64,000 bases of DNA, taken from contig NZ_CP132339.1 of the NCBI RefSeq assembly GCF_030944405.1, positions 496,001 to 560,000 of the forward strand, written 5' to 3'. The notes beneath the pieces are model-generated. The model searched no databases, had not been told where the DNA came from, and saw only the letters and a program-made list of their open reading frames with translations. This DNA comes from Janthinobacterium sp. J1-1 (GTDB taxonomy: Bacteria; Pseudomonadota; Gammaproteobacteria; Burkholderiales; Burkholderiaceae_D). Positions 1,717 through 18,383 of the stretch are shown one piece after another; the first letter of the stretch is position 1; the number at the start of each line of letters is the position of its first letter. The position numbers and the translations under genes were made by a program.

Positions 1717-1770
1717 ACCGATTTGAGAAGAAGGCCGCTTTGCGGAGCAGCCAAACCCGACGAGGTGTGT

Positions 1771-2352: not shown

Positions 2353-2425
2353 ATAAAGGGGGTAAAGAAACCGCTGGTTTGTCACCTGCACCGTGATTTG
2401 TGTATATATGGCAAAATTTTCAATC

Positions 2426-2511: not shown

Positions 2512-3188
2512 TGGCTGTGTTATATGAAAATTTCCCAGTGAGCTAAGGGATATTTCCAAAAATATGTTGCCTCCGCAGTCCGTACAAAGAACTGTTGTAA
2601 GAGGAAACTTGGAACTCTTTTTTTAAAAACTAGATGGAGTCGCTCCAGCTGGATCGTGGCAATTGCGAGCTGGAATTACATTTCGCCTTTCGGGCGAAGC
2701 GCCATGAAGGATACGCTCGCAAAGCGTTTCTTCAACTCAAGCCAAGGCCCCCAACCACGGCGCCGCTGGGCGGCGCATGGCGCTATTAAAGCCAGGCGTC
2801 GACGCTTGTGGAGGGAGCCTACTTTGCAAACCCCATCTACGAGTTCGCGATTGCTTCCGCACACCGGCACTTTGCTTCGCTAATAGTGCTTACTCTTTCC
2901 GCTGGCAAGTCGTCCACCTGCCAGCCCCGAGCGTTGGCCTCTTCGTCCTAACAAATTACCTAAACCCCAGTCTCCATGGTCACTTGAAAAAACCAAGACG
3001 GGCAAAGCTAATTTTGTGACCAAGTTGACACCCGGATACCGGTCTTTAAGCCTTCTTGGTCTCAATCAACCAGTAGACAATGCTCACGCATCGTCTACGG
3101 AGTCATCCTTGAAAGCCGGAACGCCTATGTATCGGCCCGGTTGCGGGCGGATGACGCAGCATATAGCGGCGTTTAGCAGTGAAATCCC

Positions 3189-3296
3189 CAACCAGGGCGG
3201 ACAGGGTCCGCTGCTTTTCAGTAAGTGTCATTCACTGATTAAAGGTATCGCAGTACCTCAGACCGGAGAGTGCGCGGACCCTGTCCGCCCTGGTTG
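3189..3296. repeat. Perfect 23-bp inverted repeat around a 62-nt loop
   Basis: Arm caaccagggcggacagggtc... (3189-3211) is the exact reverse complement of 3274-3296. The loop holds a smaller hairpin (ggta/tacc near 3244-3257). There is no T-tract, so a terminator is unlikely. It could be a single-strand initiation site of the candidate origin, a site for a recombinase or relaxase, or the end of a small element. Confidence 0.6.
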
Positions 3297-3396
3297 TCAT
3301 ATCTGACTACAAGACGTGACAATGTGTGAGTATTTCCTCTGTGAAATATGATACCTTGGATAACTAATAGGGCACGAGCAAAGTTAGATTTTAAGA

Positions 3397-3723
3397 TTAA
3401 TCCGTTTTCTCACGAAGAAGCGTTAGCAGCCGATGTCGTTCAATGTTTGAAAGGTGATGCCAGGCCTGGATAACCTCAGCTAATTCATCATCTTCACAGT
3501 AAAGAAATGGTGTTGGCACATTGAGTGCCATCGCTAATTGAGTTGCTATTTCCACCGGTGGCGCATGCACTCCCGTTTCGTACCTGCTTAACCTTGCGCT
3601 CGCTGTCGTTTCGTCCAGGCCAATCGCTACACCTAACTTATCCTGCGGAATACCAGCAAGAAGCCTTGCTTCGCGTAAGCGCCGTCCAAAAAGTGACGAG
3701 GGAGGTTTGGAACGAGGAGGCAT
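3397..3723 (-). CDS. XRE-family transcriptional regulator
   Basis: A 108-residue Cro/C1-type repressor. Start chosen at the Met of MPPRSKPPSS; a longer frame upstream would read through its own operator. The HTH spans about residues 10-70: 'LFGRRLREARLLAGIPQDKLGVAIGL' then 'ARLSRYETGVHAPPVEIATQLAMAL', with the typical Ser-Arg-Tyr-Glu-x-Gly recognition region. The C-terminal part is short and helical with no peptidase domain, so de-repression would not be by LexA-like cleavage. It is divergent from the 3852 gene, and palindromic sites in the gap suggest it represses itself and perhaps that gene. Confidence 0.85.
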   Translation of the reverse strand: MPPRSKPPSSLFGRRLREARLLAGIPQDKLGVAIGLDETTASARLSRYETGVHAPPVEIATQLAMALNVPTPFLYCEDDELAEVIQAWHHLSNIERHRLLTLLREKTD

Positions 3724-3731
3724 ACTTCGAT

Positions 3732-3772
3732 ATTCGTAGAATATGCTTGCGCCGTCTCTACGAAATTCGTAG
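3732..3772. promoter_or_regulatory. Operator cluster in front of the XRE gene
   Basis: The 11-mer attcgtagaat occurs at 3732-3742 and 3765-3775, and the second copy is part of a perfect 15-bp palindrome ctacgaaattcgtag (3758-3772). The sites lie 9-50 bp upstream of the repressor start codon, the expected position for autoregulation by a dimeric XRE protein. Confidence 0.6.
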
Positions 3773-3851
3773 AATTCCCTATGGCAATATTTTGATGAAT
3801 GAGTAGAATCGAATCCCCCCACGCGAAATTGCTATATAGGAAACATGCTGC

Positions 3852-4790
3852 ATGTCACTGCCATCCGCACAACTTATCACCTATCTTTCTCACGTTGATC
3901 GCCCTCATCATGACGCGGTGCTCGCCTTGGCAGAGAGAGCCATTTTGCTTCCCAAAATCATTCGACCACTGGCGGCGGCGATCCTGGCTTATTTGTTGCT
4001 GGCTTACCTTGCTGGCTTGAGCACTAAAGCAATGCCGCTTGCCGCAGCTGTCGGCGCCCTGACGCTGCTTGTTACCTTCCTTAACAACAATGTCATGGGC
4101 TGGGCGGAGCGAAATAGTTCACGAATTGCGATGGTGTTCGCGGTTCTTGCTTTGTTTTTCGGCCTTGCTGGCGCGCTCCTTACTAAGAAGGAGCCGTTGG
4201 TCGTTCTCGCGATCGGTGCCGGCGGATTTTGCGTGACGTGGATTGTGGTCACTGTTGGTTTGGTATTCCTGTCGCTGTTGATCAGTATGCTTTCTTTGCT
4301 CTTGCAAGCATTTGCATCACCCATCGCAGCACCTGTGTTGGCAATATTTGCAAAAATCCATAATCGGCTCTTGCGTACGAAATATAAAGGTTGGGTAACA
4401 TCGCAAGGAGCGCCCATCATTGAATTTGACAGCGAGGGCGTGAAAAATTTTGCACCTGGCAATGAGGCGATTTTTGTGTCGTCTCCGCGTTTTCGTTGCG
4501 GTGGTGCGGCAATGGCAGCGGGGATTCCTCTGTTCACCTTCTATGAACTCGGGGATAGCGCCATCATCAATCAGCGTGTCAGTGCTGCTTACGACGCACT
4601 AAGCACCACTGCTGGCGAGAGGCACGACGACATTGCAACTCATCCACTCATGGACTTGAATCCTGCAAACGGACTCCCCATGATTGCTGGGATAGGCAGC
4701 GTGGATGTGATGGGCAACGCTTTTGGCACCGACAGTCATCAGTTCTATCACACCACGGATATGGGACATGACAGCTTCAACAATCACTGA
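3852..4790 (+). CDS. Unrecognised multi-pass membrane protein
   Basis: A 312-residue protein I cannot assign to a family. The N-terminal half holds about four hydrophobic helices (residues ~35-55, 60-77, 92-110 and 115-155), and the C-terminal ~130 residues are soluble and end in a His-rich tail (HQFYHTTDMGHDSFNNH). No catalytic motif is recognisable. It is followed after 70 bp by an exported protein on the same strand, so the two may be co-transcribed. The start at 3852 lacks a strong ribosome binding site. GC content is lower than in the region beyond 18.4 kb, consistent with island cargo. Confidence 0.6.
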   Translation: MSLPSAQLITYLSHVDRPHHDAVLALAERAILLPKIIRPLAAAILAYLLLAYLAGLSTKAMPLAAAVGALTLLVTFLNNNVMGWAERNSSRIAMVFAVLALFFGLAGALLTKKEPLVVLAIGAGGFCVTWIVVTVGLVFLSLLISMLSLLLQAFASPIAAPVLAIFAKIHNRLLRTKYKGWVTSQGAPIIEFDSEGVKNFAPGNEAIFVSSPRFRCGGAAMAAGIPLFTFYELGDSAIINQRVSAAYDALSTTAGERHDDIATHPLMDLNPANGLPMIAGIGSVDVMGNAFGTDSHQFYHTTDMGHDSFNNH

Positions 4791-4860
4791 TCGCATAATT
4801 TTTCTGGCTTCAGCGGAAATTTGTTGATCGATATCAATTACTAGATATTTAGGACGAAAT

Positions 4861-6051
4861 ATGGGCAAGAAAGTAGTTTTGAAAACCGTGATGGCCGGCT
4901 TGCTCATTTCCGTCGTGCATGGGGCTGTCGCTGCGGATATTCGTGACCAGTTCAATGTGCAAACCTCAAAAGCTGAACTCGTGGTGCCCAATGCGCGCGC
5001 CCAGGATGTGGCAGCGCAAGTCAAGGATGCCTTGTCACAGTTCGCTATTCCTTCCTCATATAACGTGCACAGTCTTCCGGCGGCGTTGCCTGCTCGCCCG
5101 CTGGAACCTGCGCTTCAGGATTTCCTGGTCCAGGGGCAGCCTGTCAGTGAGTACCAGTGTCGCAACGGCTACGCGGAAGTCACCAAGACCCCAGCACCGA
5201 TCAAAAATCCATTCATGTTTGCCGCTGAACGTGTGCAGGCGTGTCTGTACCCGTTCCAGGGTGGCGTGAAGATTTACCTGATCTTTGCTTCAGTCAAGAA
5301 GACTGAATCGCTGACAGCCGGATTATTCAATGGCATTACCAGCGCTATCCGAGGCAAGGACGAAGACTACAATGCCAAGCGCCTGAAAGAAGAAATTGCG
5401 GCCATACGCAAGAATTTGCCCCAGTTGCTGGTTGAGAAAATTGATGTTCCTGGCGCTACGCTTGAGGAACCGGATAAGGATACCGTGGCCAAGTTGATGC
5501 CGGCCAGGAGCGAGATAGGTGCCCAGCCATATGTGGCAGCATTGCCCGCTGCTTCGCCATCGGTATCGGGGACGGGCGGCGTGGCATCACAGGGCAACAG
5601 TAAAGTGGAAGCGCGCAAAAACCTTGCAGGAATGGGGTTGACGTACCACTCGACCGAACAGTTTTTCGCAGCAATTCGCCGTGACGATGAAGTGGCAGTT
5701 CAGCTCTTCCTGGCTGCTGGTTCCATGAAAATACTTACCAAAGACGCCGATGGCAAGACTCCGGAGCAAGCGGCGCTGGAATCGAGTGCATCGGCCGCTT
5801 GGGAAGCGATCAAGCAGTTTGCAGCTGCTAACCCTCAGGCAGCGGCCAAGGAACCGAACAATCCGGCCGCAGACCCTGCACAAGCGCTTGCCGCAGCCCG
5901 CGAGTCCTTGTCTCCGGAGGTGCTGGCGGGGATTGAGAGAATGATCAAAGAGCAGCGCCTGAGTGGAGCTGAGGCGGAAGCTTTCCGCACCAAGGCGACG
6001 CTCCAGCTTGCGATTCAATTCAAAGGCATACCTAAGTCGATGATGCAGTAG
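4861..6051 (+). CDS. Exported protein with an ankyrin-like segment, function unknown
   Basis: A 396-residue protein with a clear signal peptide (Lys-rich start, hydrophobic core, cleavage near AVAA-D at residues 22-25). Residues ~255-320 contain 'YHSTEQFFAAIRRDDEVAVQLFLAAG' followed by 'DADGKTPEQAALE', which has the helix-turn-helix spacing of a single ankyrin repeat. The tail is Ala/Pro-rich and helical. Bacterial exported ankyrin proteins often mediate protein contacts; here there is no catalytic clue. It lies downstream of the 3852 membrane protein and upstream of another cargo gene. Confidence 0.65.
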   Translation: MGKKVVLKTVMAGLLISVVHGAVAADIRDQFNVQTSKAELVVPNARAQDVAAQVKDALSQFAIPSSYNVHSLPAALPARPLEPALQDFLVQGQPVSEYQCRNGYAEVTKTPAPIKNPFMFAAERVQACLYPFQGGVKIYLIFASVKKTESLTAGLFNGITSAIRGKDEDYNAKRLKEEIAAIRKNLPQLLVEKIDVPGATLEEPDKDTVAKLMPARSEIGAQPYVAALPAASPSVSGTGGVASQGNSKVEARKNLAGMGLTYHSTEQFFAAIRRDDEVAVQLFLAAGSMKILTKDADGKTPEQAALESSASAAWEAIKQFAAANPQAAAKEPNNPAADPAQALAAARESLSPEVLAGIERMIKEQRLSGAEAEAFRTKATLQLAIQFKGIPKSMMQ

Positions 6052-6215
6052 CAGAGCGGGGGGGGGCGGCTTTCCGAATGGATACCAGCGCATATGGCTC
6101 ATCGTGAAACGGCGATGGCGCGGTTCAATTTTGGTTAGGCTTGCGGCGAATCCCGCAAGAAGCGGGCGGCGCTTTTTTGGCGCTTCCTTGCATATTTTTA
6201 ACATGAGGAAAAAGC

Positions 6216-6845
6216 ATGTTCGATTTTCTGAATGTCGTCTATTTGGCATCTATTCTGATTTCCAGTATTACGATGTATCCAGTCGGTGAAACCGCCGTGC
6301 CTGTTAGTCTGGATGGCGCAGTGGAAGTGCGTTTTGTGCGCGAATGGTGGCGTGACGATGGCGATGGCAAGTGTTTTTATACGGGCATGGTAGTTCCGTT
6401 CGAACGTACCTGGCCAGAAGAGATTGAACGCGGTGGCGAGAAAGTTGTCCTGCCTCCTGAGCCAGGCAAGATCGCCGGCTATGTCGCCCTTATTAACCGC
6501 AAGGAGTGCAAGGGGTTGGAGACCGAAGCAATCTTACGCGCAGGTCTCGTGCGATCACGAACACTTCTGTTCGGCAGCCGTGGTCCCCAGGTGGACAAGC
6601 ACACCTTTTTCCCAGCTGGCGATATGCTGGAGACACCAGCGGAGAAGGTGCAGCCTTGGTTCCCGCAAGTTGTCGAGCGCATGGAGCGCCTGAGTGTGCA
6701 AGATAAAGTGGCCAAGGCATTTCTAGCTGCCAGCGCATCAGAACTGGTCACAGTTCTGCCTGGTCGTAACGGCAAGCCGCAAGCTGCGGCCTTCGTACCT
6801 GAAGGTCCTATCCCAGATGTGAGCGGCGATCAGCGAGAGAACTGA
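6216..6845 (+). CDS. Hypothetical protein with an N-terminal hydrophobic anchor
   Basis: A 209-residue protein of unknown function. Residues 1-20 (FDFLNVVYLASILISSITMY) form one hydrophobic segment, either an uncleaved anchor or a weak signal sequence. The rest is soluble, with many charged residues and no motif I recognise. The ATG is preceded by gagg at a suitable distance. It is the third gene in a row on this strand between the XRE regulator and the convergent 6879 gene; shared envelope location of all three is the only hint of a common job. Confidence 0.55.
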   Translation: MFDFLNVVYLASILISSITMYPVGETAVPVSLDGAVEVRFVREWWRDDGDGKCFYTGMVVPFERTWPEEIERGGEKVVLPPEPGKIAGYVALINRKECKGLETEAILRAGLVRSRTLLFGSRGPQVDKHTFFPAGDMLETPAEKVQPWFPQVVERMERLSVQDKVAKAFLAASASELVTVLPGRNGKPQAAAFVPEGPIPDVSGDQREN

Positions 6846-6878
6846 TCTTGTCGCGGGGGGACGTCGGACAACATACTC

Positions 6879-7688
6879 TTAGTCCTGCTGCAAAGGGATT
6901 CGCGTAAGCTCCAACAGGTCAGCGTCCAGTTGAAAAATAGCAAGGCGCTCGCTCAGAATCCTGGCGTCGAGTTCACGGATTTGGCGCGGATATCCGCTCT
7001 CTGGCCCATGTGTCAAAGCCGCGTGCAGACGCTTGCCGATAGTCTTAGCGCCAGAGGCGGTAACTACAAACCACAGTTTGTCGATCAAGGGTGCTGGATG
7101 CTCAAAGATACTCCGTAAAAACCAGACAAGCTTCTGCATGTCTCGTGCTCCTCGCCAGCCGTTCTCTACCTCAACCCAGATTGGGCCGGCGAAACCGTGT
7201 AGCAGCAGGTCTGGAATCTTTTGAAGACTAATACCATCGTCGTCGCTGTAGCTGAAAGCCGACAGATTAGCCGGAGCGCTACCGGCCCGAATTTCTAACT
7301 CTGACCAGCCAATGTCCTCGTCAAGCCCTCGGGTCACAGCGGCATAAACGGAATTGCATGCAGTGCGGTGTTTGTGTGCGTGACGAAGCCAATCTCGTGC
7401 ATGAGCACGTCCATGCGGCATCTCGACTAGCTCCGCGAGCGCTGCGACCCCGGCACGATTTAATGCCAGCATCATCTCACCTGCCACAGAGTCTCCATCG
7501 CGTTTTTTTACCAAATAGCCAAGTGCGAATAGGCTGCGAATTGTACGGCCGGCCATTTTTCGACCGCTCATGTCGCACGAGCCCAATACGGCCATTGCGA
7601 TCTGCCGGGTGGTGGCGTACCCCACGTGAGCTAAGAATTTGAGCGTCTTTGCACGATACTCGCGCCCAATTTGTTGTTTGCTTTTCAT
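6879..7688 (-). CDS. Winged-helix protein, possibly replication-relaxation type
   Basis: A 269-residue protein. The N-terminal ~85 residues form a winged helix: 'AKTLKFLAHVGYATTRQIAMAVLG' and 'AGRTIRSLFALGYLVKKRDG', followed by a His-rich linker. The second half has 'IPDLLLHGFAGPIWVEVENGWRG' near residues 158-180, a Pro-Asp then Glu-x-Glu arrangement seen in degenerate PD-(D/E)xK folds, and then 'LWFVVTASGAKTIGKRL'. This two-part layout recalls the replication-relaxation family found in mobile elements, but the assignment is by pattern only. It reads toward the 6216 gene and starts at the edge of the hairpin-rich region at 7803. Confidence 0.55.
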   Translation of the reverse strand: MKSKQQIGREYRAKTLKFLAHVGYATTRQIAMAVLGSCDMSGRKMAGRTIRSLFALGYLVKKRDGDSVAGEMMLALNRAGVAALAELVEMPHGRAHARDWLRHAHKHRTACNSVYAAVTRGLDEDIGWSELEIRAGSAPANLSAFSYSDDDGISLQKIPDLLLHGFAGPIWVEVENGWRGARDMQKLVWFLRSIFEHPAPLIDKLWFVVTASGAKTIGKRLHAALTHGPESGYPRQIRELDARILSERLAIFQLDADLLELTRIPLQQD

Positions 7689-7802
7689 TCGAGAGTTCCT
7701 TCATGTTGTTACCTTGTATAGCGGATTATTTGAAGGTGGCAGCGAGTATGTGTTTAGGCACACTTGATTCTTGCTTTCTGATCGTTCAGTGAGCTTTGTT
7801 TT

Positions 7803-8373
7803 GTTGTTTCCTCGGATAGCTCCGCTGGTGGAAACAACGCATGCTTTGGATTCGACGCGTACTTGCAAGCACACGGCCTTCGCCCTCTGGGCTGCGCGGA
7901 GTTGAGAACTCCTTGCGGGACAGCGTATTTGGCTTCACGGGCTGGACGCCCTACCAAATACTTCGGGCCAGTGCCCGATGTCCTGCGGCCCCGAGCTGCG
8001 CTCGGGCTACCCGCTTTCTGCGGCGCCCAAAGCTTACGCTGTGGGCGGTCCCGAGGGACTCGACCTTGTTCCTTCGGAATGCGGTCGCCCTTGAAACCAG
8101 GTAGCCCGACCGCTGTCGGGGCCGGGGGCTCTCGCCCCCCGGTGGACGGTCAGCGCTCGGGGCGCTTCAATTTGACCTGGACGGTCAATTGCCCTTCCAC
8201 CGGCTCCCCCGATGGCACTGTCCCGCGTGGGCGCGGAACAGTCGCTCCGGCCGTGTGGCCTACGCGCCCCTTCGGGGGCGAAGCCTTCGCTGGCTTAGGG
8301 GCATCGTGTTTAGATTGTGGGTGGCATCTGTCCAAAAGCGTTCCGAGTACATTTTCTTCGTAAATGTACTCGG
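7803..8373. other. Gene-free tract packed with hairpins; structured RNA or single-strand DNA site
   Basis: Between the genes at 7688 and 8815 there is no coherent gene. Instead there are many close inverted repeats: gttgtttcc/ggaaacaac (7803-7838), a nested gtatttgg/ccaaatac pair enclosing gggc/gccc (7925-7961), small GC stems such as cgggc/gcccg, ccgagc/gctcgg and cccgac/gtcggg through about 8280, and a perfect 12-bp stem ccgagtacattt/aaatgtactcgg (8343-8373, 7-nt loop). The stems lie almost end to end, which is more than expected by chance even in GC-rich DNA. It could encode a large structured RNA or be an origin or transfer site. Confidence 0.5.
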
Positions 8374-8500
8374 GATGAAGAAGCGCGCGCGAAGTAGCAC
8401 TTATGATTGTTTGTCAAAAGGGCTTGCGGTATCGGCAGAATTCGATGGAGCAAAAGAACTCTGCAACTATTCGTTTTTTTCTATACTTGAAGGAGGGCAT

Positions 8501-8548
8501 ATGTTGCCGCAATTCTACGGCGGTGTGGGATTTGCGAAAAGGATATAG
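8501..8548 (+). CDS. Possible 15-residue leader peptide
   Basis: ATG 8501 follows a near-ideal Shine-Dalgarno (aaggagg, 5 nt spacing) but the frame closes after 15 residues (MLPQFYGGVGFAKRI). Either a short leader peptide or the surviving start of a lost gene. It is followed by a very stable GC hairpin at 8561-8599, an arrangement that could attenuate transcription toward the defence operon. Confidence 0.3.
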   Translation: MLPQFYGGVGFAKRI

Positions 8549-8560
8549 AAAAACATTCTC

Positions 8561-8599
8561 GCGGGGGGAGGGGGGCGCGCCCAATGCCTCTCCCCCCGC
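8561..8599. repeat. GC-only 10-bp stem-loop
   Basis: Arms gcggggggag (8561-8570) and ctccccccgc (8590-8599) are perfectly complementary. There is no U-tract on the + strand side, where the following run is A-rich, so a canonical terminator for + transcription is not seen. It may block read-through from the hairpin tract by another route. Confidence 0.45.
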
Positions 8600-8814
8600 A
8601 CCCCCTCCAAAAAAATACAAGAAACGCTTTCACTTGTAGCTCATTCCTATATGACGGACTTCGCTTTATTCTTCATTCTTGAACCAGACGTGAGCCAATT
8701 GAGGTTGGACGATTTTGGAAAATGGGCGCAGGTAGGAACTCCTGCCAAGCAGTCGCGTGTTAGACTCTCTTGCACTGTCTTGTACTGGAATTCAACTTAA
8801 AAGTTACTGCCCAT

Positions 8815-9045
8815 ATGTCGTCCTTGATTGAAAGCGTTATGACCGTCAAAGAAGTCGCCGATTACCTTCGGGTTAATCAACGCACCGTATATCGTCTTGC
8901 TGTCGAGCGCCGTCTACCTGGCTTCAAGGTCGGGGCGATCTGGCGGTTCAAACGAGATGACATTGATCATTGGATCGCGGAACAGTCAGTCGCAGGGCGT
9001 CAAGCCGCCGGAACCAATCCAAAGGGCGAGGGTGAAAATACGTGA
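8815..9045 (+). CDS. Excisionase/MerR-type HTH protein leading the defence operon
   Basis: A 76-residue protein with one HTH_17 domain: 'MTVKEVADYLRVNQRTVYRLAVERRLPGFKVGAIWRFKRDDIDHWI' (split here as the Val-Ala-Asp-Tyr-Leu first helix and Gly-x-Trp-Arg-Phe wing). The Met at 8815 was preferred over 8770; a third possibility is the internal Met at 8839. Its stop overlaps the GTG start of the helicase gene by 4 nt (GTGA), so it is translationally coupled to the operon and probably regulates it or guides a subunit to DNA. Genes of this type commonly precede island restriction systems. Confidence 0.8.
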   Translation: MSSLIESVMTVKEVADYLRVNQRTVYRLAVERRLPGFKVGAIWRFKRDDIDHWIAEQSVAGRQAAGTNPKGEGENT

Positions 9046-12000
9046 AGCTGATTCAAAACAGCGGCTCAGACCGCGTCATTGATCTTATCCGCCCACATCT
9101 AAAGCAAGGACATCAATTCGGCTGCGTGACTCCTTCGTTCTCACTGTTCGCATTTGCAGAGCTGCAAGAGGCGCTTGCAAAGCTTGAGCGTGTGCAACTC
9201 ATACTCCCCCCTGCCGATGATAAGCTTGACTTCCTTGGTTCTGAGGGTGATCGCGCTGCGCGTAATCGTCTGCAAGCCAGGTGGCTAGCTAATCAGTGTG
9301 CGAAATGGTTGGATGAAAAGGTCGAGCTACGCAGAGCGCTGGGACGCGTCCCGCAAGGCACGGCTGTTATGCGTGGTCCAAATGGCGTAGCCAATCAGGT
9401 AGTTTTAGGTTCGTTTGCATTTAGCACAGACGGTTTGGGCCTGACGCCTGGCAACCCTCTGAGCCTAATTCAAGCATCTGAGTCAACAGAGGAAGCCGCG
9501 CAACTCGCCCGCTGGTTGGAGCTGCAATGGGCAACCTTGCAGACGCAGCCCGATAGCCGTCCAGCGCTTATTAAAGCCTTACAGGGTATGGGCCAACACC
9601 ATGCACCGTTCACGCTCTACACCTTGATCCTGAAACACATGTTCGGGGACAGGGGCGACGAGATGGATGAGGAGCGCATTGTTAAGTCGGCTACCGGTAT
9701 TCGTAACACAGTCGTTTGGAACAAGCTCTTCAAGTTTCAGCGCGACGGTGTCGTAGGTGCTATCGACAAACTAGCTCGTTTCGGTGGTTGCATCATTGCT
9801 GACTCCGTGGGCCTGGGCAAAACCTTCGAGGCTTTAGCGGTCATCAAGTACCACGAGCTGCGTAATGACCGCGTGCTTGTACTGGCGCCCAAGCGCTTGC
9901 GCGACAACTGGACGCTTTATAAGGCCAACGACAAGCGCAACGTACTTGCGGCCGACCGTTTCAACTATGACGTCCTGAATCACACCGACCTGTCGCGGGA
10001 TAGTGGCATTTCGGGTGACATCGACCTGGCCAATGTGAATTGGGGTAACTACGATCTAGTGGTCATTGATGAGAGTCACAACTTCCGCAACAAGGCGAGT
10101 AACAAAAGCAAAGAGACTCGCTACGACCGGCTCATGCGCAAAATCATTAAGGAGGGCGTCAAGACACGCGTGCTGATGTTGTCGGCCACTCCGGTGAACA
10201 ACCGCCTAGCTGACCTGAAGAACCAAATCGCTTTCGTCACTGAAGGAGACGACACTGCGCTGGCAGAGCATGGAATAGGTAGCATTGAGGAAACTACGCG
10301 CAAGGCCCAAAGTCAGTTCAATCGTTGGCTGGAAATGGACGAGGCCGAGCGGACGCCTGGCCATCTGGTGGAAATGCTGGGCTTTGACTACTTTACGCTC
10401 TTGGATCACCTGACTATCGCGCGGTCGCGCCGGCACGTCGAAAAGTATTACGGTACGGCCGAGACTGGTAAGTTTCCAGGCCGTTTTCCTCCCATTAACA
10501 TCAAGGCCGATGTGGACATAGCGGGCGAGTTTAGGGCCATCAAGGATATCAACCTAGAAATCCGCCGCCTGAACTTGGCGAGCTATGCTCCTCTACGTTA
10601 CGTGCTCCCGCATAAGCAGGCCGCATATGATGCCAAGTACAGCACCGAAATTCGGGGTGGTGAGAGTTTTTTCCGTCAGGCTGACCGCGAAGAGAGCTTG
10701 ATCCACTTATTGAGGGTCAACGTGCTCAAGCGAATGGAGAGTGCCGTGTCTTCGTTCGCGTTGACGATCCAGCGGCAGCTCAAGGACGTTGTAGCCGTTC
10801 TGAATCATATCGAAACCCATGACGAGAGCGTCGAGGAAATTGATATTGCTGGCGTAGACATTGACGATCCTGCGTTCGAGTCCCTGCTGGTTGGACGTAA
10901 AGTTAAGGTGCTGCTAACAGATGTGGACCTCATCCGCTGGAAACAAGACCTTATAGAGGACCGAAACCGCTTGGCTACCCTGTTGGCAGCGGCGCAGCAG
11001 GTAGATGCTTTGCGCGATGCCAAGCTGGCCAAGCTGCGCGCAATGATTGAGCAGAAGTGCCGTGAACCGATAAATGCAGGCAACCGCAAGATTATCGTAT
11101 TCACCGCGTTCTCAGACACAGCCCAGTACCTCTATGCTAGCCTCGCGTCGTGGGCCAAGAGCACTTTGGGTATTGACGCTGGATTGATTACCGGTAGTGC
11201 TGGTATCCAGACCACCCTACCCGGTTTGCGTAAAAATATGAGCAGTGTCTTGTCGGCCTTCGCTCCACGTTCAAAGGAACGCCCGGCCGACCTGGTTGCG
11301 GAAGGCGAGATCGACTTGCTCATTGCTACCGACTGCATCTCTGAAGGTCAGAATTTGCAGGACTGCGATTGGCTTGTTAACTACGATATCCATTGGAACC
11401 CCGTTAGGATCATCCAGCGCTTCGGTCGTATCGACCGCATCGGTTCGCCTAACCAGAACATCCAGCTAGTTAACTTCTGGCCTAATATGGAACTGGAAGA
11501 GTACATCGGTCTGGAGCAGCGCGTTAGTGGGCGCATGGTGTTGCTAGATGTCTCAGCCACTGGTGAGGAAAACCTTATCGAGCAGCAGTCGGGCAACCCA
11601 ATGAACGACCTAGAATACCGGCGCAAGCAGTTGCTCAAGCTTCAGGATACGGTCATTGATATGGAGGACCTGAGCAATGGCGTCTCCATCACTGACCTGA
11701 CGCTGACCGACTTCCGCATCGACTTGGCGCAGTACCTGAAGGAACACCCAGGCCAGCTCGATACCCTGCCGTTGGGAACCTACGCAGTCACGACCAGCAT
11801 TGACGCCGACATAGCTCCTGGCGTCATCTTTTGCTTACGGGCGGAAGGCGCCGTTGCGGCCAAGGGCCAGCACTCCGACTATCCACTCGCGCCGATCTAC
11901 TTGGCCCATGTTGGCGATGATGGCGCTGTGCTGTTGCCGTACCCCCAGGCCAAGCGTATCTTGGACCGGCTCAAGCGCTTAGCCCTCGGGCGCGAGCTGC

Positions 12001-12236
12001 CCGACGATGGTGCTTGCGCTAAGTTCGATAAGGACACGCGTCAGGGCGAGGACATGCGCCACGCGCAGAAACTGCTCGCCGCCGCAGTGGTATCAGTGGT
12101 GGGCAAGAACGAAGAACGCGCCGTAGCAAGCCTGTTTTCGCCGGGTGGCACCCATGCTATGAAGGGTGAGTTTGCCGGCAGTAATGAGTTCGAGGTGCTC
12201 GCCTTCATGGTTGTGTTGCCGGGAGCCGCTGCGTGA
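9042..12236 (+). CDS. SNF2-type helicase of a type III R-M-linked cluster
   Basis: A 1064-residue superfamily 2 ATPase. Residues 1-~235 form an N-terminal region that could be a phospholipase D-like fold but shows no HKD motif. The motor follows: Walker A 'DSVGLGKTFEA' near residue 252, DExH-type box 'VVIDESHNFRN' near 340, motif III 'LSATPVNNR' near 378, and the C-terminal lobe with 'LLIATDCISEGQNLQ' and 'RIIQRFGRIDRIGS' near 770-800. A long insertion (about 480-690) separates the lobes, and a ~200-residue tail follows. All ATPase motifs are intact. The GTG start overlaps the upstream stop and the end overlaps the next start (GTGA both times), so four genes are tightly coupled. Confidence 0.85.
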   Translation: MKLIQNSGSDRVIDLIRPHLKQGHQFGCVTPSFSLFAFAELQEALAKLERVQLILPPADDKLDFLGSEGDRAARNRLQARWLANQCAKWLDEKVELRRALGRVPQGTAVMRGPNGVANQVVLGSFAFSTDGLGLTPGNPLSLIQASESTEEAAQLARWLELQWATLQTQPDSRPALIKALQGMGQHHAPFTLYTLILKHMFGDRGDEMDEERIVKSATGIRNTVVWNKLFKFQRDGVVGAIDKLARFGGCIIADSVGLGKTFEALAVIKYHELRNDRVLVLAPKRLRDNWTLYKANDKRNVLAADRFNYDVLNHTDLSRDSGISGDIDLANVNWGNYDLVVIDESHNFRNKASNKSKETRYDRLMRKIIKEGVKTRVLMLSATPVNNRLADLKNQIAFVTEGDDTALAEHGIGSIEETTRKAQSQFNRWLEMDEAERTPGHLVEMLGFDYFTLLDHLTIARSRRHVEKYYGTAETGKFPGRFPPINIKADVDIAGEFRAIKDINLEIRRLNLASYAPLRYVLPHKQAAYDAKYSTEIRGGESFFRQADREESLIHLLRVNVLKRMESAVSSFALTIQRQLKDVVAVLNHIETHDESVEEIDIAGVDIDDPAFESLLVGRKVKVLLTDVDLIRWKQDLIEDRNRLATLLAAAQQVDALRDAKLAKLRAMIEQKCREPINAGNRKIIVFTAFSDTAQYLYASLASWAKSTLGIDAGLITGSAGIQTTLPGLRKNMSSVLSAFAPRSKERPADLVAEGEIDLLIATDCISEGQNLQDCDWLVNYDIHWNPVRIIQRFGRIDRIGSPNQNIQLVNFWPNMELEEYIGLEQRVSGRMVLLDVSATGEENLIEQQSGNPMNDLEYRRKQLLKLQDTVIDMEDLSNGVSITDLTLTDFRIDLAQYLKEHPGQLDTLPLGTYAVTTSIDADIAPGVIFCLRAEGAVAAKGQHSDYPLAPIYLAHVGDDGAVLLPYPQAKRILDRLKRLALGRELPDDGACAKFDKDTRQGEDMRHAQKLLAAAVVSVVGKNEERAVASLFSPGGTHAMKGEFAGSNEFEVLAFMVVLPGAAA

Positions 12237-13048
12237 CGGAGCAGTCGCTGACCGGCATGTTGCTTTCTGCGCTGAGTCTTCCGACCAGTTGCCGCGTGGA
12301 TCAGCGTGTTCCTAAAAAGATGCTGGTCGAAAACGGCGCACCGACCAGCGCAGACAAACACCTCATCAACGACACTGTCGAAGAAATTCAGTGGATTGCG
12401 GCCTTGAAGCCCAACACAGTGGGCGTGGCCGAATACCGGGACGATTGCCGCGATTATGCAGAGGTCGCAGTGTTGTGCATCACCGTGCGCAATGCCCCTC
12501 AGGGTGACGGCGTTGGCGTAGCCCGTGCAGGTCAACACACCCGACCAGTTAAAATTACACGCCTGGCTGAATTAGTACACCGTGCCGTGCCTTATCCATT
12601 GCTGCTTCTGCTTGCTGCGCCGCAGGGCGTGCACCTCTCCCTAGCACACAAACGCTGGGCACAGAATGAGGCTGGCAAGGTAGTGCTGGATGGCGAACCG
12701 GCGACGGTTGACATGGCACTTGACCTGACAGCCGATCATCCGTTCGTTCATGCGCTGGCCCTATCCCGGCAACCGCAAACCAGTTTGCTTGCCCTGTACC
12801 AAGGCTGGATGAACTGCCTGACTGCTTTGCAGGCGTCGCAATATACCGGCACCTTCAATGAATCCGAAACGCCGGACTTGGTTGCCGCACGCCGCCAGAC
12901 CTTGCGCACCTGCCAACGTTTGGAGCAAGAAGCAAATCGCTTACGCGCGCTTGCGGCCAAGGAAAAACAGATGGCAAGGCAGGTGGACTTAAACCTCGCG
13001 CTTCAGCGCATCAGCACCGAGCTAGCATCGGCACGTAAACAACTTTGA
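12233..13048 (+). CDS. DUF4391 family protein
   Basis: A 271-residue protein of the DUF4391 family, whose role is unknown but which is repeatedly found between a SNF2 helicase and a type III Mod gene. Recognisable features are 'CRVDQRVPKKMLVENG' near residue 20, 'HLINDTVEEIQWIAALKP' near 45-60 and the central 'RLAELVHRAVPYPLLLLL' near 110-130. The C-terminal ~60 residues (RRQTLRTCQRLEQEANRLRALAAKEKQ) are predicted to be a coiled coil, suggesting assembly with another subunit. Start is GTG inside the helicase stop. No nuclease or nucleotide-binding motif is visible. Confidence 0.8.
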   Translation: MTEQSLTGMLLSALSLPTSCRVDQRVPKKMLVENGAPTSADKHLINDTVEEIQWIAALKPNTVGVAEYRDDCRDYAEVAVLCITVRNAPQGDGVGVARAGQHTRPVKITRLAELVHRAVPYPLLLLLAAPQGVHLSLAHKRWAQNEAGKVVLDGEPATVDMALDLTADHPFVHALALSRQPQTSLLALYQGWMNCLTALQASQYTGTFNESETPDLVAARRQTLRTCQRLEQEANRLRALAAKEKQMARQVDLNLALQRISTELASARKQL

Positions 13049-13074
13049 TTACCCTGCAAATGACGGAGATCCAG

Positions 13075-15078
13075 ATGCAAAAAATAGAAGCAACCCAACC
13101 GGCTGCCAAGTCAGCTGACTTGGTGGCGGGCAACATCGAACAACTCAAGGCCCTGTTCCCCGAGCTAATCACCGAGGGAGCAGATGGTGTGGCTGTCAAC
13201 GTGGATGTGCTTAAGGCTTTGGTGGGTGACCAGACAGCTACAGATGCCGAAGAGAAGTACGGCCTGAATTGGCACGGTAAACGCCGGGCGCGTCAACTGG
13301 CACTTACGCCCAGCAACGGCACGCTGCGCCCCCACCCAGAAGAAAGTGTTGAATGGGATAACACCCGAAATGTGATGATTGAGGGTGATAACCTAGAAGT
13401 GCTCAAGTTGCTGCAGAAGAGCTATGCGAACAAAGTTAAGCTAATCTACATCGATCCACCATATAACACTGGCAAGGACTTCGTCTACCCCGATAATTTT
13501 CATGACAATATTAAGAATTATTTGGAGCTGACTGGTCAGGCGGAAGGCGGAAAAAAAGTTAGCAGCAACACGGATGCAAGCGGTCGCTTTCACACCGATT
13601 GGCTAAGTATGATCTATCCGCGGCTGAAGCTCGCGCGGGGGTTGCTTAGGGATAACGGCGTGATATTCATCTCGGTCGACGAACGGGAATACTCCTCTCT
13701 TCGTCTAATTTGCTGCGACATATTTGGAGAGGAAAATATTGTTGGTACAATCGTTTGGAAAAATGCCACTGACAATAATCCAACAAACGTGGCCACCGAG
13801 CATGAGTACCTGCTGGTTGTGGCAAAGAAGAAAGACGAGATAGATTCCGAATGGAAATCCTCGATTTCTGACGTAAAGGATGTGCTAATCCAGATCGGCG
13901 AAACGCTATCAAAAAAGTACAAAGACCAGGCTCTTCGAGATGCGTACGATGAGTGGTTCCGCGAACACAAGGCGGAACTATGGCCACTTGATCGATACAA
14001 GTATATAGATGAAGGTGGCGTGTATACCGGAAGTCAAAGCGTCCATAACCCAGGAAGGGAAGGGTATCGTTACGATGTCATTCACCCCGGCACTAAACTT
14101 CCTTGTAAACAACCTTTGATGGGGTATCGTTTCCCGAAGAAAACGATGGATGAGCTGCTGGCTGCCCGCCGCATATTATTCGGAGAGGACCATTCTAAAA
14201 TTATTGAACTAAAGGTATATGCATCGGAGTTTAAGGAAAAGCTCTCCAGCCTGTTGGAGTTGGACGGCAGGCTGGGTGCGTATGATCTCAAGGAAGACTT
14301 CCCCAAAGAAGGAAAGGTTTTTACCAACCCGAAGCCTGTTCGACTATATGAGGCATTTTTGCCATTTCTGTTGAAGGATTCTGGTGATCTCATTGTCGAT
14401 TTTTTTGCTGGCTCTGGGGCGACGGCTAAAGCGGTATGGAAATTGAACGCCAAAGATTCTGTTCATCGTAAGTTTATTCTGGTCCAACTACCTGAACCGC
14501 TGAATGACTCAGATAAGGATCAGAAGGCAGCCGTTCAGCTCTGTGATGCTTTGGGCGCCCCAAGAAATCTTGCTGAAATAACTAAGGAACGCTTGCGTCG
14601 AGCCGGGAAGAACATCCAGCTCTCGGCCCCTTTGCTTATGCTCGATTTTGGCTTTCGAGTCTTTAAGCTCGACTATTCAAATATCAGAGCCTGGAATCCC
14701 GCGCCCGTCGATCTTGAGCGGTCGCTGTTCGACCATCAAGATAGCATCGTAGTTGGTCGATCTGAGGACGATGTCCTGTACGAGTTGTTAATTAAGCTGG
14801 GACTGGATCTTTGCGTGCCAATTACTCAGAGGGTGGTAGCGGGCAAGAAACTGCATTCAGTTGGCGGCGGCGTTCTCATCGCCTGCTTGTCTACGACAAT
14901 TGCAGCCGGGGACATTGAGCCATTGGCCCAAGGCATTATTGATTTTCACAAAGAAGTCATGCCAGCTGGCGACACGACCTGCGTGTTCCGCGACAGTGCA
15001 TTTGCCGATGACGTTGCCAAGACCAATCTTGCGGCGATCCTGGCGCAGAACGGTATCCAGACCGTTCGCAGTCTTTGA
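13075..15078 (+). CDS. mod: Type III restriction-modification DNA adenine methyltransferase
   Basis: A 667-residue DNA N6-adenine methyltransferase of the beta class. The catalytic 'IDPPYNTGKDF' (DPPY) is near residue 126 and the S-adenosylmethionine loop 'DFFAGSGATAKAV' near 443, the order typical of type III Mod. Between them lies the variable target-recognition region, whose DNA is AT-richer (13.7-14.4 kb) than the flanks, as is common for exchanged specificity domains. The ATG at 13075 has ggag at 8 nt; a TTG at 13045 overlapping the previous stop and an ATG at 13060 are alternatives. Mod gives sequence specificity for the complex and protects host DNA. Confidence 0.9.
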   Translation: MQKIEATQPAAKSADLVAGNIEQLKALFPELITEGADGVAVNVDVLKALVGDQTATDAEEKYGLNWHGKRRARQLALTPSNGTLRPHPEESVEWDNTRNVMIEGDNLEVLKLLQKSYANKVKLIYIDPPYNTGKDFVYPDNFHDNIKNYLELTGQAEGGKKVSSNTDASGRFHTDWLSMIYPRLKLARGLLRDNGVIFISVDEREYSSLRLICCDIFGEENIVGTIVWKNATDNNPTNVATEHEYLLVVAKKKDEIDSEWKSSISDVKDVLIQIGETLSKKYKDQALRDAYDEWFREHKAELWPLDRYKYIDEGGVYTGSQSVHNPGREGYRYDVIHPGTKLPCKQPLMGYRFPKKTMDELLAARRILFGEDHSKIIELKVYASEFKEKLSSLLELDGRLGAYDLKEDFPKEGKVFTNPKPVRLYEAFLPFLLKDSGDLIVDFFAGSGATAKAVWKLNAKDSVHRKFILVQLPEPLNDSDKDQKAAVQLCDALGAPRNLAEITKERLRRAGKNIQLSAPLLMLDFGFRVFKLDYSNIRAWNPAPVDLERSLFDHQDSIVVGRSEDDVLYELLIKLGLDLCVPITQRVVAGKKLHSVGGGVLIACLSTTIAAGDIEPLAQGIIDFHKEVMPAGDTTCVFRDSAFADDVAKTNLAAILAQNGIQTVRSL

Positions 15079-15088
15079 AGGGCCGCTA

Positions 15089-18082
15089 ATGAAACTTCAC
15101 TTTGAGGCGAACCTCGACTATCAGCTTCAGGCCATTGAGGCAGTCTGTGACCTATTTCGCGGTCAAGAGTCCTGCCGCACGGAATTTACAGTGACGATGA
15201 AGCTACCTGACCAGCAATTGACACTGGGCGTGGCCGATACCGATCTCGGCGTTGGCAACCGCCTGACGCTGCTGGACGACCAACTTCTTCAGAACCTGCG
15301 TGATGTCCAGTTGCGCGGGGGCCTTGCACCTTCCGGCGTACTGGCCTCGGGCGACTTCACCGTCGAAATGGAAACCGGCACCGGCAAGACCTATGTCTAC
15401 TTACGCACGATTCTCGAGCTGAACAAGCGGTACGGCTTTACCAAGTTCGTCATCGTGGTGCCCTCGGTTGCTATCAAGGAAGGCGTCTACAAGTCGCTGC
15501 AGATCACGGAAGACCACTTCAAGGGAATTTATGCCGGCGTACCTGTGGACTTCTTCCTCTACGACTCCAGCAAGCTGGGTCAGGTGCGTAACTTCGCCAC
15601 CAACTCCACGATTCAGGTGATGGTTGTTACGGTTGGTGCCATCAACAAAAAAGATGTGAACAATCTCTACAAGGACAGCGAGAAGACCGGCGACAGCAAG
15701 CCTATCGACCTCATCAGGGCTACGCGACCTATCGTTATCGTGGATGAGCCACAGAGTGTGGACGGTGGCTTAAATGGCGCTGGCAAGACTGCCCTGGACG
15801 CTATGAACCCCCTATGCACGCTACGCTATTCGGCTACCCACGCCAACAAGCACCACATGGTGTTCCGGCTCGATGCGCTAGACGCTTACGAGCGCAAGCT
15901 AGTCAAGCAGATCGAAGTGGCAGCGGCCACTATCGAGGGCGCGCACAATAAGGCCTTCGTACGGCTGGCTTCAGTCAACAACAAGAGCGGAAGCATCAGT
16001 GCAAAGGTCGAGCTGGATGTCAAGACCGCCACGGGCGTAAAGCGTCAGGAGATGACTGTCTGCGACGGCGATGATCTGCAGCAGACCGCCAAGCGAGACA
16101 TCTACTCTGACTTCCGCGTAGGCGAAATTAGCACTGCCAAGGGCAAAGAGTTCCTGGAGCTGCGCTACCCCGGTGGCGAAGCCTTCCTCTCCGTGGGCCA
16201 GGCCTACGGCGATGTTGATGGCCTGGCGGTGCAGCGCGAGATGATTCGCCGCACCATCCGTGAACACCTTGAAAAAGAGAAGGTACTTCGACCTATGGGG
16301 ATCAAAGTACTATCGTTGTTTTTTATCGACGCAGTGGGGCGATACCGCCAGTACGACGCTGATGGCAACCCAGTGAAAGGTGACTACGCTCACATCTTCG
16401 AGGAAGAGTACCGACGTGCTGCGAAGCTGCCTGCCTACCAGAGCATGTTCGCCGAAATCGACTTAGCCAGCGCCGCAGAAGAAGTGCACGATGGTTACTT
16501 CTCTAAGGATAAGAAAGGAGTTTGGTCGGACACCACCGAGAACAACGTCGGCAACCGCGAGAACGCTGAGCGAGCCTACACCCTCATCATGAAGGAGAAG
16601 GAAAAGCTGCTTGCCTTCGATACGCCGCTTAAATTTATCTTTTCGCATTCGGCATTGAAGGAGGGTTGGGACAACCCCAACGTCTTCCAGATTTGCACGC
16701 TGCGGGAAATGGGCACTGAGCGCGAGCGCCGGCAGACAATCGGCCGGGGTCTGCGGCTGTGCGTGAATCAATATGGCGAACGGGTGCGCGGTTTCGAGGT
16801 CAATCGGTTGACCGTCATCGCCACCGAGTCCTACGAGCAGTTCGCCGAGAACTTGCAAAAGGAGATCGAGGTCGACACGGGCATCCGGTTCGGCATTCTG
16901 GAACAGCACCAGTTCGCAGGCATCGCCATCAAGGGGGCCGATGGCACGCTCTCCCCGTTTGGTGTGGATCAGTCAAAAGCCTTATGGGAGCACTTGAAGG
17001 CGACGGGGTACGTCGATGCCAGAGGTAAGGTACAGCAATCGCTGAAGCTGGCCCTGAAGGACGGCACCTTGGTGTTGCCCGAAGCGGTTGAGGTGCAGCG
17101 CGGCCAGATCGCCGAAGTGCTGCGCAAGGTGTCGGGCCGGCTCGAAATTAAGAACGCCGATGAGCGCAAGGCTGCTCCGTTGCGCAAGGACAAAGACGGC
17201 AAGGCCGTCTATCTGTCGGATGATTTCAAGGCGCTGTGGAACCGCATCAAGCACCAGACCACCTACCGAGTTCAGTTTGACAATGCCAAGTTGCTGCAAG
17301 ACTGCACCGCCGAGCTGAAGAAGGCCCCGGTCATAGCCAAGGCGCGGCTGCAGTGGCGCAAGGCCGACATTTCTATTGGCCAGGCGGGCGTACTGGCTAC
17401 TGAGAAGGAAGGCGCCGCGACCGTGGTGCTAGAAGAGGGCGACATCGAGTTGCCAGATTTGCTGACTGATTTGCAGGATCGCACCCAGCTCACGCGTCGC
17501 AGCATCATTGCCATCCTGACCGGCAGTGGTCGGTTGGACGACTTTAAGCGCAACCCGCAGCAGTTCATCGAGCAGACGGCCGAGGTCATCAACCGTTGCA
17601 AGCGCCTCGCTCTGGTAGATGGCATCAAGTACCAGAAAATTGGAGACGAGCATTTCTATGCCCAGGAGCTGTTCGCTAAGGATGAGTTAACCGGCTATCT
17701 GCGTAACATGCTGCTGGATACCAAGCGGTCGATCTATGAGCACGTTATTTACGACTCGGATATCGAGCGCGACTTTGCCGATGCCCTGGAGAAGAACGAT
17801 GGCGTAGTGCTATATGCGAAGCTGCCGAGCTGGTTCAAGGTGCCCACGCCACTAGGGCCTTACAACCCGGACTGGGCTATCTTGTTCGACCACGATGGCA
17901 CGCAGCGTTTGTATTTCGTCGTCGAGACCAAGAGCAGCCTGTTCACCGACGACCTGCGCAGCAAGGAAGATGCCAAGATCGAATGCGGCAAGGCGCATTT
18001 CGCGGCGTTGGAGGGGGGCGCGAACCCAGCCCGCTACCTTGTGGCTACGTCTTTTAGCGATGTGCTCAAGACGATTGAGTGA
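15089..18082 (+). CDS. res: Type III restriction endonuclease subunit
   Basis: A 997-residue Res subunit. Start is ATG 15089, ten bases after the mod stop, giving the usual MKLHFEANLDYQ N-terminus; an earlier ATG at 14861 only reads through mod. Motor motifs: 'EMETGTGKTYVYL' near residue 94, 'IVDEPQSVDG' near 219, 'YSATH' near 249, 'ALKEGWDNPNVFQI' and 'RRQTIGRGLRL' near 520-560. The C-terminal nuclease has 'YNPDWAILF' and 'YFVVETKSS' near 925-950, a complete PD-ExK site. The enzyme cuts DNA after ATP-driven communication between two unmethylated sites. All key residues are intact, so the system looks active. Confidence 0.9.
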   Translation: MKLHFEANLDYQLQAIEAVCDLFRGQESCRTEFTVTMKLPDQQLTLGVADTDLGVGNRLTLLDDQLLQNLRDVQLRGGLAPSGVLASGDFTVEMETGTGKTYVYLRTILELNKRYGFTKFVIVVPSVAIKEGVYKSLQITEDHFKGIYAGVPVDFFLYDSSKLGQVRNFATNSTIQVMVVTVGAINKKDVNNLYKDSEKTGDSKPIDLIRATRPIVIVDEPQSVDGGLNGAGKTALDAMNPLCTLRYSATHANKHHMVFRLDALDAYERKLVKQIEVAAATIEGAHNKAFVRLASVNNKSGSISAKVELDVKTATGVKRQEMTVCDGDDLQQTAKRDIYSDFRVGEISTAKGKEFLELRYPGGEAFLSVGQAYGDVDGLAVQREMIRRTIREHLEKEKVLRPMGIKVLSLFFIDAVGRYRQYDADGNPVKGDYAHIFEEEYRRAAKLPAYQSMFAEIDLASAAEEVHDGYFSKDKKGVWSDTTENNVGNRENAERAYTLIMKEKEKLLAFDTPLKFIFSHSALKEGWDNPNVFQICTLREMGTERERRQTIGRGLRLCVNQYGERVRGFEVNRLTVIATESYEQFAENLQKEIEVDTGIRFGILEQHQFAGIAIKGADGTLSPFGVDQSKALWEHLKATGYVDARGKVQQSLKLALKDGTLVLPEAVEVQRGQIAEVLRKVSGRLEIKNADERKAAPLRKDKDGKAVYLSDDFKALWNRIKHQTTYRVQFDNAKLLQDCTAELKKAPVIAKARLQWRKADISIGQAGVLATEKEGAATVVLEEGDIELPDLLTDLQDRTQLTRRSIIAILTGSGRLDDFKRNPQQFIEQTAEVINRCKRLALVDGIKYQKIGDEHFYAQELFAKDELTGYLRNMLLDTKRSIYEHVIYDSDIERDFADALEKNDGVVLYAKLPSWFKVPTPLGPYNPDWAILFDHDGTQRLYFVVETKSSLFTDDLRSKEDAKIECGKAHFAALEGGANPARYLVATSFSDVLKTIE

Positions 18083-18336
18083 GATTGGCATATTTTGCTA
18101 ATGGATTGCTACGAGAGATACTTGTATTCTCGAGACGTCCTTAGCATGCTAGTCACTGCACGTTTTCCTGGGCATGCGACTGGATGACAGCGATGAGCTT
18201 GGGAAAAATCTTGGGGAAAATTATCCCCGATTTTCTTCCCAAACTTTCCTTCGCTTGCCTAATTCTGCAAGTGGGAATATGATGTAAATTCAAGGAGTTA
18301 CAGTAAAATAAGCCAGTTTTCGTAGTCGTCTAACGA
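18083..18336. other. Island terminal spacer with an imperfect inverted repeat
   Basis: No gene. An imperfect inverted repeat spans 18199-18242: ttgggaaaaatc faces gattttcttcccaa, enclosing an inner tgggga/tcccc stem. It lies about 95 bp from the attachment site and could be an arm-type integrase site or a terminator for the res transcript. Confidence 0.4.
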
Positions 18337-18383
18337 GCCTCCGAAGCCAAGGGTCGTGGGTTCGATCCCCGCCAGCCGCACCA
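18337..18383 (+). other. attR: 3' half of tRNA-Arg(CCG) at the island boundary
   Basis: Bases 18339-18383 are exactly tRNA positions 32-76: anticodon loop ctccgaa (anticodon CCG), 3' anticodon stem gccaa, five-base variable loop, T arm gtggg-ttcgatc-cccgc, acceptor strand cagccgc, discriminator a and encoded CCA. Upstream sequence cannot form the 5' half: the D arm and GCGGCTG acceptor strand are missing and only 'gc' (18337-18338) still pairs. Integrases that use tRNA genes recreate the 3' end next to the intact gene and leave such a fragment at the far side, so this is the distal end of the island. The intact gene is expected upstream of the window on the same strand. Confidence 0.85.

Follow-up and report, generated by a model that had tools for sequence, protein, structure and literature searches.

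Recurrent linkage of an SNF2 ATPase and a DUF4391 protein to type III Mod and Res suggests a four-subunit restriction subtype

Type III restriction enzymes are textbook two-subunit enzymes, and the locus described here raises the question of why its Mod and Res genes share an operon with genes for an SNF2-family ATPase and a DUF4391 protein. The operon lies in Janthinobacterium sp. J1-1 (contig NZ_CP132339.1), within a stretch of 64,000 nucleotides (positions 496,001 to 560,000, forward strand) that is called the window below; coordinates count from its first letter. Our favored answer, held with moderate confidence, is that the locus belongs to a widespread and distinct type III subtype with four core subunits, namely Mod, Res, a nuclease-dead PLD-SNF2 motor, and DUF4391. 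This four-subunit reading rests on the conserved linkage of the genes, the correlated divergence of their proteins, an SNF2 protein whose ATPase is intact and whose HKD site is lost, and a DUF4391-like domain on the methylase that accompanies HKD-intact SNF2 relatives. The features of the operon are as follows.

8815-9045, + strand: small HTH_17/MAD1-like DNA-binding protein, which may in fact start at the in-frame ATG 8839
9042-12236, + strand: SNF2-family ATPase, 1064 amino acids (aa), PADLOC model C3a139 'HKD+Snf2'
9042-9599, + strand: PLD-like (HKD) domain, SNF2 residues 1-186, catalytic H/K pair lost
12233-13048, + strand: DUF4391 protein (PF14335), 271 aa, alpha/beta domain plus C-terminal long helices (~211-271)
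13045-15078, + strand: type III Mod methyltransferase, start TTG 13045 or ATG 13060
13741-14364, + strand: stretch with the target recognition domain of Mod (residues 233-440), EcoP15I-like by alignment with EcoP15I Mod
15089-18082, + strand: type III Res, SF2 motor plus PD-(D/E)XK nuclease (RE_endonuc, ResIII, EcoP15I Res alignment)

An earlier note on this DNA had described a tightly coupled five-gene operon, and its open-reading frames (ORFs), families, 4-nt overlaps and 10-nt gap were verified. The HTH/SNF2 and SNF2/DUF4391 junctions are GTGA stop/start overlaps of 4 nt, and Res begins 10 nt after Mod. The DUF4391/Mod junction is a 4-nt TTGA overlap if Mod starts at TTG 13045, which is uncertain because an in-frame ATG lies 15 nt after it, at 13060. 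The HTH and Res frames are parts of longer listed ORFs (8770-9045 and 14861-18082, respectively). Pfam assigned the products to HTH_17 (62.8 bits), SNF2-rel/Helicase_C, DUF4391 (228.7 bits, cut-off 29.9), N6_N4_Mtase (104.6 bits), and RE_endonuc (122.8 bits) with ResIII, while PADLOC gave MTase_III for Mod (685 bits), REase_III for Res (1359 bits), and C3a139 for SNF2 (383.5 bits).

Conservation of the set was examined from both of the additional genes. DUF4391 was found above the cut-off in 12 of 250 genomes of the host's order and 19 of 299 of its phylum, two of them common, giving 29 genomes. SNF2 lay directly or one gene upstream in 26 of these, and in the remaining three (G267, G270, G492) DUF4391 was at a contig edge. 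Mod was beside DUF4391 in 26 of the 29 (in pieces in G107 and G353) and absent from G139, G428 (contig edge), and G270; Res was present in 24, the others being three contig edges (G250, G348, G428) together with G139 and G270. In G139 (L016/L189, L188), a Tn3-family transposase follows DUF4391 and a related Mod-Res pair is on another contig.

A profile scan of species genomes with SNF2 confirmed at least 581 loci, and the best 80 of these, which are the named loci, came from Pseudomonadota, Bacillota, Bacteroidota, Actinomycetota, Planctomycetota, Verrucomicrobiota, Cloacimonadota, and others, including one archaeon, Methanobrevibacter curvatus (L103). Together with the window, the survey loci, and three annotated plasmids, they formed an SNF2 clade set of 112. 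DUF4391 or a DUF4391-like domain was present in all 76 loci with at least 9.5 kb downstream, Mod in 75, Res in 74, and all three partners in 74, the two exceptions being L055 (no Res) and L193 (an HKD-intact form). A class-level survey of 369 genomes added 13 SNF2 loci: five are complete and in the usual order, some with Mod or Res in two ORFs (L200-L204), one genome (G868, L209/L217) keeps all four genes rearranged to Mod-Res-SNF2-DUF4391, two loci are HKD-intact (L198, L199), and five are cut by contig or region ends (L205-L208, L210), with no DUF4391 in the 1.2 kb available at L207.

The four genes also occur in order on annotated plasmids of Acinetobacter sp. NEB149, the archaeon Methanomethylovorans hollandica, and Enterococcus hirae, as well as in E. 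coli 83972, wastewater E. coli ABWA45, and plasmid p1919D62-2. Among the annotated records, an insertion sequence (IS) element separates Mod and Res in NEB149 and a small gene precedes Mod in two others; the annotations name each of the four genes separately. The SNF2 gene matched 88 of 5426 E. coli genomes by blastn, of which three were opened, and the whole operon gave no megablast match in E. coli genomes. Among 50,697 phage records, five matched SNF2, three of them over at least 80% of the query. The complete set is present in Bacillota, Bacteroidota, Actinomycetota, Planctomycetota, and an archaeon, and this recurrence of the same genes across many phyla indicates that the operon arrangement is not due to chance. 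The helicase and DUF4391 genes, which the earlier note had proposed as parts of one set with Mod and Res, are clearly not found equally often without them (26/29 and 74/76), and the set is conserved. A conserved genetic unit of SNF2, DUF4391, Mod, and Res is strongly supported; that the four act as a joint machine is moderately supported.

The HTH gene is another matter. The earlier note had placed it in the set, and an HTH of this kind was found by our own profile upstream in only 10 of the 112 SNF2 loci; it was dropped as a core component on this low frequency. The protein scored barely above the cut-off of the MAD1 model NF047737 (82.4 bits against 80; NCBIfam) and is a probable operon regulator that may set expression. 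Other operon genes vary as well: GmrSD-like, Schlafen AlbA, AAA_13, DUF2130, and UvrD-like genes occur in L017, L019, L021, L022, L023, and L041, the Pfam naming having been run on L017, L019, L021, L022, and L041.

How the pair is distributed among type III systems was assessed from 33 strong-Res genomes (RE_endonuc match above 78 bits) among the 250 of the host's order. About a third of them (12/33) carry the same two extra genes. Of the 21 without DUF4391, 20 regions were examined (G193 was left out), and five (L168, L171, L174, L175, L178) contain a second kind of SNF2 near Mod/Res and no DUF4391. Three of these five are DrmD-like (PDLC02619, 541-689 bits) and two were recognized by the SNF2 profile alone. 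Type III systems have thus been joined by two SNF2 lineages, the DrmD-like one probably being the kind of extra ATPase described in PMC8259958. Two relics were also seen: G093 (L165) retains a C-terminal piece of Mod and a complete Res that shares 81% identity with the window Res, while neither SNF2 nor DUF4391 was matched in the stretch retrieved, and G169 (L182:7229-9136) has a single 635-aa ORF matching both SNF2 and Res profiles, a probable deletion relic.

Pairwise distance matrices of the four proteins across 65 dereplicated loci all correlate (six comparisons, r 0.64-0.89, 0 of 2000 permutations as high), as would fit a co-inherited unit. A Res tree was built from 42 hand-picked rows, of which 24 are linked (23 loci together with G139) and 18 are others. 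Placing the linked label on it takes 3 changes, compared to a shuffled mean of 13.9; the linked rows fall into two clusters and do not make up a single clade, and the only plain row among them is the G093 relic. Four DrmD-linked rows are scattered over the same tree (4 changes, no better than shuffles).

The window SNF2 has Walker A, DESH, and motif VI intact, in agreement with the earlier note's claim of preserved catalytic residues, and none of the 120 aligned SNF2 proteins departs from the Walker A K, the DESH E, or the R of motif VI. Its N-terminal PLD (HKD) nuclease fold was absent from that note, and here the catalytic H/K pair is missing in 115 of the 120, the window protein included. 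The 120-row residue count left out L029, which is the same locus as L144, and both the 112- and 120-row counts keep duplicate loci of one genome from two collections (e.g., L018/L061, L066/L162). The reading frame is open at most loci across many phyla, and split in L082.

Beside a few HKD-intact SNF2s, the DUF4391-like domain is carried by an Eco57I-type methylase (L144, L193, L198, L199). These loci share a homologous SNF2 (DUF4391-linked SNF2s are 41-46% identical to that of L144) and the DUF4391-like domain with the window system; they differ in that HKD is intact, the domain is on the methylase, and no type III Mod/Res is seen, L198 and L199 ending at contig edges. In L193, methylase and DUF4391-like domain are in two overlapping ORFs. 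The DUF4391 profile was trained on 81 sequences; these had been selected in a previous round of profiling in which the L029 fragment was included. Because the H/K pair is lost, the ATPase is invariant, and the DUF4391-like domain sits on the methylase beside HKD-intact SNF2s, it is likely that SNF2 is a nuclease-dead motor for which DUF4391 serves as the coupler. In their own right, L144:4049-11402, L193:6454-13737, L198, and L199, with the domain N-terminal on the methylase, are a candidate separate defense module, and in L144 a MAD1-like HTH ORF overlaps the SNF2 ORF start. A more distant relative, L183:4198-10896, consists of consecutive genes for a MAD1-like HTH, an HKD-SNF2 (PLDc_2), and a methylase of 1117 aa that carries a C-terminal Type ISP domain.

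The DUF4391 protein itself gave a confident AlphaFold2 model (predicted local distance difference test score, pLDDT, 92.5) that ends in long helices. A structure search returned no significant match in the PDB (best E 0.21) or among viral models (best E 0.015); the VIA-align rows span only residues ~211-271, so that the alpha/beta part is barely covered. Two weak PDB profile matches to an NADH dehydrogenase subunit (E ~0.009) were judged to be chance, and no type IIG enzyme is among the PDB sequence-profile matches listed. DUF4391 may conceivably be an enzyme: conservation reaches 75-96% at several acidic and basic positions, although no metal-site motif was recognized among them.

The earlier note's complete type III pair was confirmed by comparison with EcoP15I: the window Mod, a beta-class methyltransferase, matches EcoP15I Mod (4zcf_A) with 528.7 bits and the window Res matches EcoP15I Res (4zcf_C) with 228.1 bits in two stretches, nuclease included. 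Identities between the two Mod proteins in successive blocks are 35/103, 50/102, 66/103, 63/103, 35/103, and 16/75, so that blocks three and four (Mod residues 233-438), which cover the target recognition domain, are 61-64% identical. Close relatives of the window Mod within the subtype behave differently: L017, L018, L038, L039, and L076 have 72-88% N-terminal identity and 13-26% in residues 233-400, and the whole Mod set has a median identity of 0.59 in the N-terminal part and 0.21 in the recognition region, with none above 0.6 in the latter. The GC content of the recognition region is 0.466, lower than the 0.503 and 0.508 found elsewhere in Mod. The recognition region (13741-14364) has apparently been exchanged, the remainder of Mod resembling its own subtype, and the target site of the window Mod is predicted to be CAGCAG. 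All 36 such sites of phage T7 are in one orientation (0 CAGCAG and 36 CTGCTG on the record strand), so the predicted specificity and these one-way sites make the mechanism testable with a common phage.

A mechanism can be proposed from these observations. The ancestor may have been a module of an HKD-SNF2 and a methylase in which motor and methylase were tied together by a DUF4391-like domain. In today's four-gene system, Res would have taken over the cutting role, the HKD site would have decayed, and DUF4391 would have become a separate coupler that docks the SNF2 motor onto the Mod subunit. Mod would read the predicted CAGCAG site, with its methylation protecting self DNA, and Res would cut DNA. 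Driven by ATP, SNF2 may move or remodel double-stranded DNA and Mod2Res, thereby clearing roadblocks, extending inter-site communication, or recycling stalled complexes. DUF4391 would gain its first proposed function. A further-reaching version, which we consider unlikely, is that SNF2-DUF4391 is a long-range double-stranded DNA motor allowing type III restriction without two inverted sites, a type I/type III hybrid in which Res replaced the HKD nuclease on an older SNF2-methylase module. A hallmark of type III restriction is ATP-dependent cutting that involves two sites and falls ~25 bp from the site. Classical type III enzymes are described as translocating a short distance with ATP and then sliding, with an inverted partner site needed (PMC11142916, PMC4490356).

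Several results weigh against a four-subunit machine. Most type III loci sampled (21 of the 33 strong-Res genomes) do without SNF2-DUF4391, G270 has DUF4391 and neither Mod nor Res in 9.1 kb, L055 lacks Res within 10 kb, and the M. curvatus locus L103, with SNF2, DUF4391, and a fragmented Mod, shows no Res over 9.3 kb. Shared descent without contact would also give the matrix correlation. Loss of HKD amounts to 3 changes on an SNF2 tree with long outgroup branches (44 of 124 rows, all below 70% identity; L187, lacking the motif used for cutting, was left out), so the contrast between HKD and Res rests on few independent events. The L144 methylase was not reported by the first, 12-sequence DUF4391 profile, Pfam DUF4391 at 1e-3 matched neither the L144 nor the L193 methylase, and DUF4391 has no recognized fold. 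The strongest caution comes from Eco86II: PMC8259958 reports that a partly purified preparation in which no helicase peptides were detected still cut DNA in vitro, and that Mod alone methylated, so basic activity may not require an extra motor.

These points bear on what else the pair might do. It could be a control or safety module that takes misplaced Mod2Res off self DNA, inhibits it there, or governs how Mod and Res assemble, a reading we regard as rather unlikely. SNF2 ATPases are typical remodelers, which speaks for such a role, as does the loss of the PLD catalytic residues with the motor residues kept. Classical Mod2Res also cuts unaided, and Eco86II is reported to cut without need of the extra helicase (PMC8259958). 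The absence of the pair from most type III loci sampled speaks against it, as does the HKD-intact form, which resembles a motor-nuclease with a methylase partner and suggests an effector origin.

It is quite improbable, in our judgment, that SNF2-DUF4391 and Mod-Res are two independent defense modules sharing an operon. GmrSD-like, AAA_13, DUF2130, Schlafen AlbA, and UvrD-like genes are indeed inserted within or beside the operon at some loci, but these inserts vary while the four core genes persist, the rearranged L209/L217 locus retains all four, and in both DUF4391 surveys every DUF4391 gene with room upstream has an SNF2. We give very little credence to the idea that the extra genes are decaying passengers of an ordinary type III system. 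In its favor, SNF2 has lost the catalytic residues of HKD and some loci, such as G093 and G169, are decayed, but the three SNF2 ATPase residues are invariant (120/120) and the frame is open at most loci in many phyla. A subtype in which all four proteins are core subunits remains our preferred reading.

In the window, the operon is the last cargo of a genomic island of about 19.8 kb, as indicated by an integrase and a 47-bp direct repeat of tRNA-Arg(CCG), one copy of which is the following feature.

18337-18383, + strand: attR, 47-bp copy of the 3′ part of tRNA-Arg(CCG), 100% repeat

The other copy (G000:C1:494561-494607) lies inside the intact tRNA-Arg(CCG), which by arithmetic spans G000:C1:494532-494607, and a 423-aa integrase gene (Phage_integrase) follows it. 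The left end of the island is 1.4 kb outside the window (G000:C1:494561), leaving 1-18383 inside, where GC is 0.49-0.59; most of the DNA to the right of the island has 0.60-0.70. The island also carries a Replication-relaxation (PF13814) gene (6879-7688, minus strand).

Membership in known systems was scanned with eight proteins, the five of the operon and three upstream; island genes further left and genes to the right were not covered. DISARM class 1 is similar in having an SNF2 helicase beside a methylase, and it was rejected: the DrmD model scored 150.7 bits against a cut-off of 610, and among the best 25 of 48 families there was no separate DrmA, DrmB, or DrmC in the eight proteins, only cross-matches of SNF2 to DrmA/DrmD. 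BREX was rejected as no PglZ or BrxC/PglY was found in the eight. MADS was rejected too: the HTH barely reached MAD1, and no other mad family appeared among the PADLOC matches listed for the eight proteins (the best 25 for SNF2 and Mod) or with NCBIfam; similar MAD1-like HTH genes also stand beside the HKD-SNF2 loci L144 and L183. SauUSI (7clg) differs in that this ATP-dependent restriction endonuclease works alone and its PLD nuclease is active. Type-2 BREX-related (BR) systems, which were rejected as well, are described as centered on a DUF499 ATPase, with an HKD + Swi2/Snf2 protein whose HKD nuclease acts as the effector (PMC12839542). HKD N-terminal to a Swi2/Snf2 ATPase and an adjoining N6-adenine methylase are common to both, whereas the window system has lost the H/K pair and has type III Mod and Res; no DUF499 ATPase was found in the eight proteins (Pfam), and the catalytic H and K are absent from the window SNF2. 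For MORC operons, PMC2292703 mentions type III-like helicases that bear an HKD domain as well as helicases of the SWI2/SNF2 family, which is not the window set.

The earlier note had also suggested that the activity of such a complex was undescribed, and this holds in part. No description of the SNF2-DUF4391-Mod-Res set was found in the open-access literature (subscription papers, preprints, REBASE, and supplements lay outside this search), DUF4391 with type III was not found there, and one paper there mentions DUF4391, in a table row on TM7x hosts. An extra SF2 helicase beside mod and res is, by contrast, in print: in Eco86II and BspHIV, PMC8259958 reports a helicase-like gene that directly adjoins the 5′ side of mod, and its authors count such a gene near mod/res in more than 500 genomes. 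The window system resembles this type in linking a non-Res SF2 ATPase gene to mod and res. EcoB4103II, from strain B4103-1, which is said to have a single type III system, has the GAGCC specificity of Eco86II (PMC8259958, Table 4), and in B4103-1 a 963-aa SNF2 protein directly precedes a 1040-aa methylase, with no DUF4391 found by our own profile. That SNF2 is DrmD-like, whereas in the window DUF4391 stands between SNF2 and Mod. The DrmD-like helicases of L174 and L175 have no PLD domain, and the window SNF2 scored 383.5 bits with C3a139 in PADLOC against 125.7 with DrmD. The extra helicase of Eco86II is probably of another kind than the window SNF2.

One of the nearest known systems is the classical type III enzyme EcoP15I, with homologous Mod and Res, nuclease included. 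It is described as a Mod2Res1 enzyme, and in the passages of PMC4490356 consulted neither SNF2 nor DUF4391 is named as a partner. If the pair contributes to restriction, the textbook type III enzymes represented by EcoP15I, with no SNF2, would be only one branch of the family.

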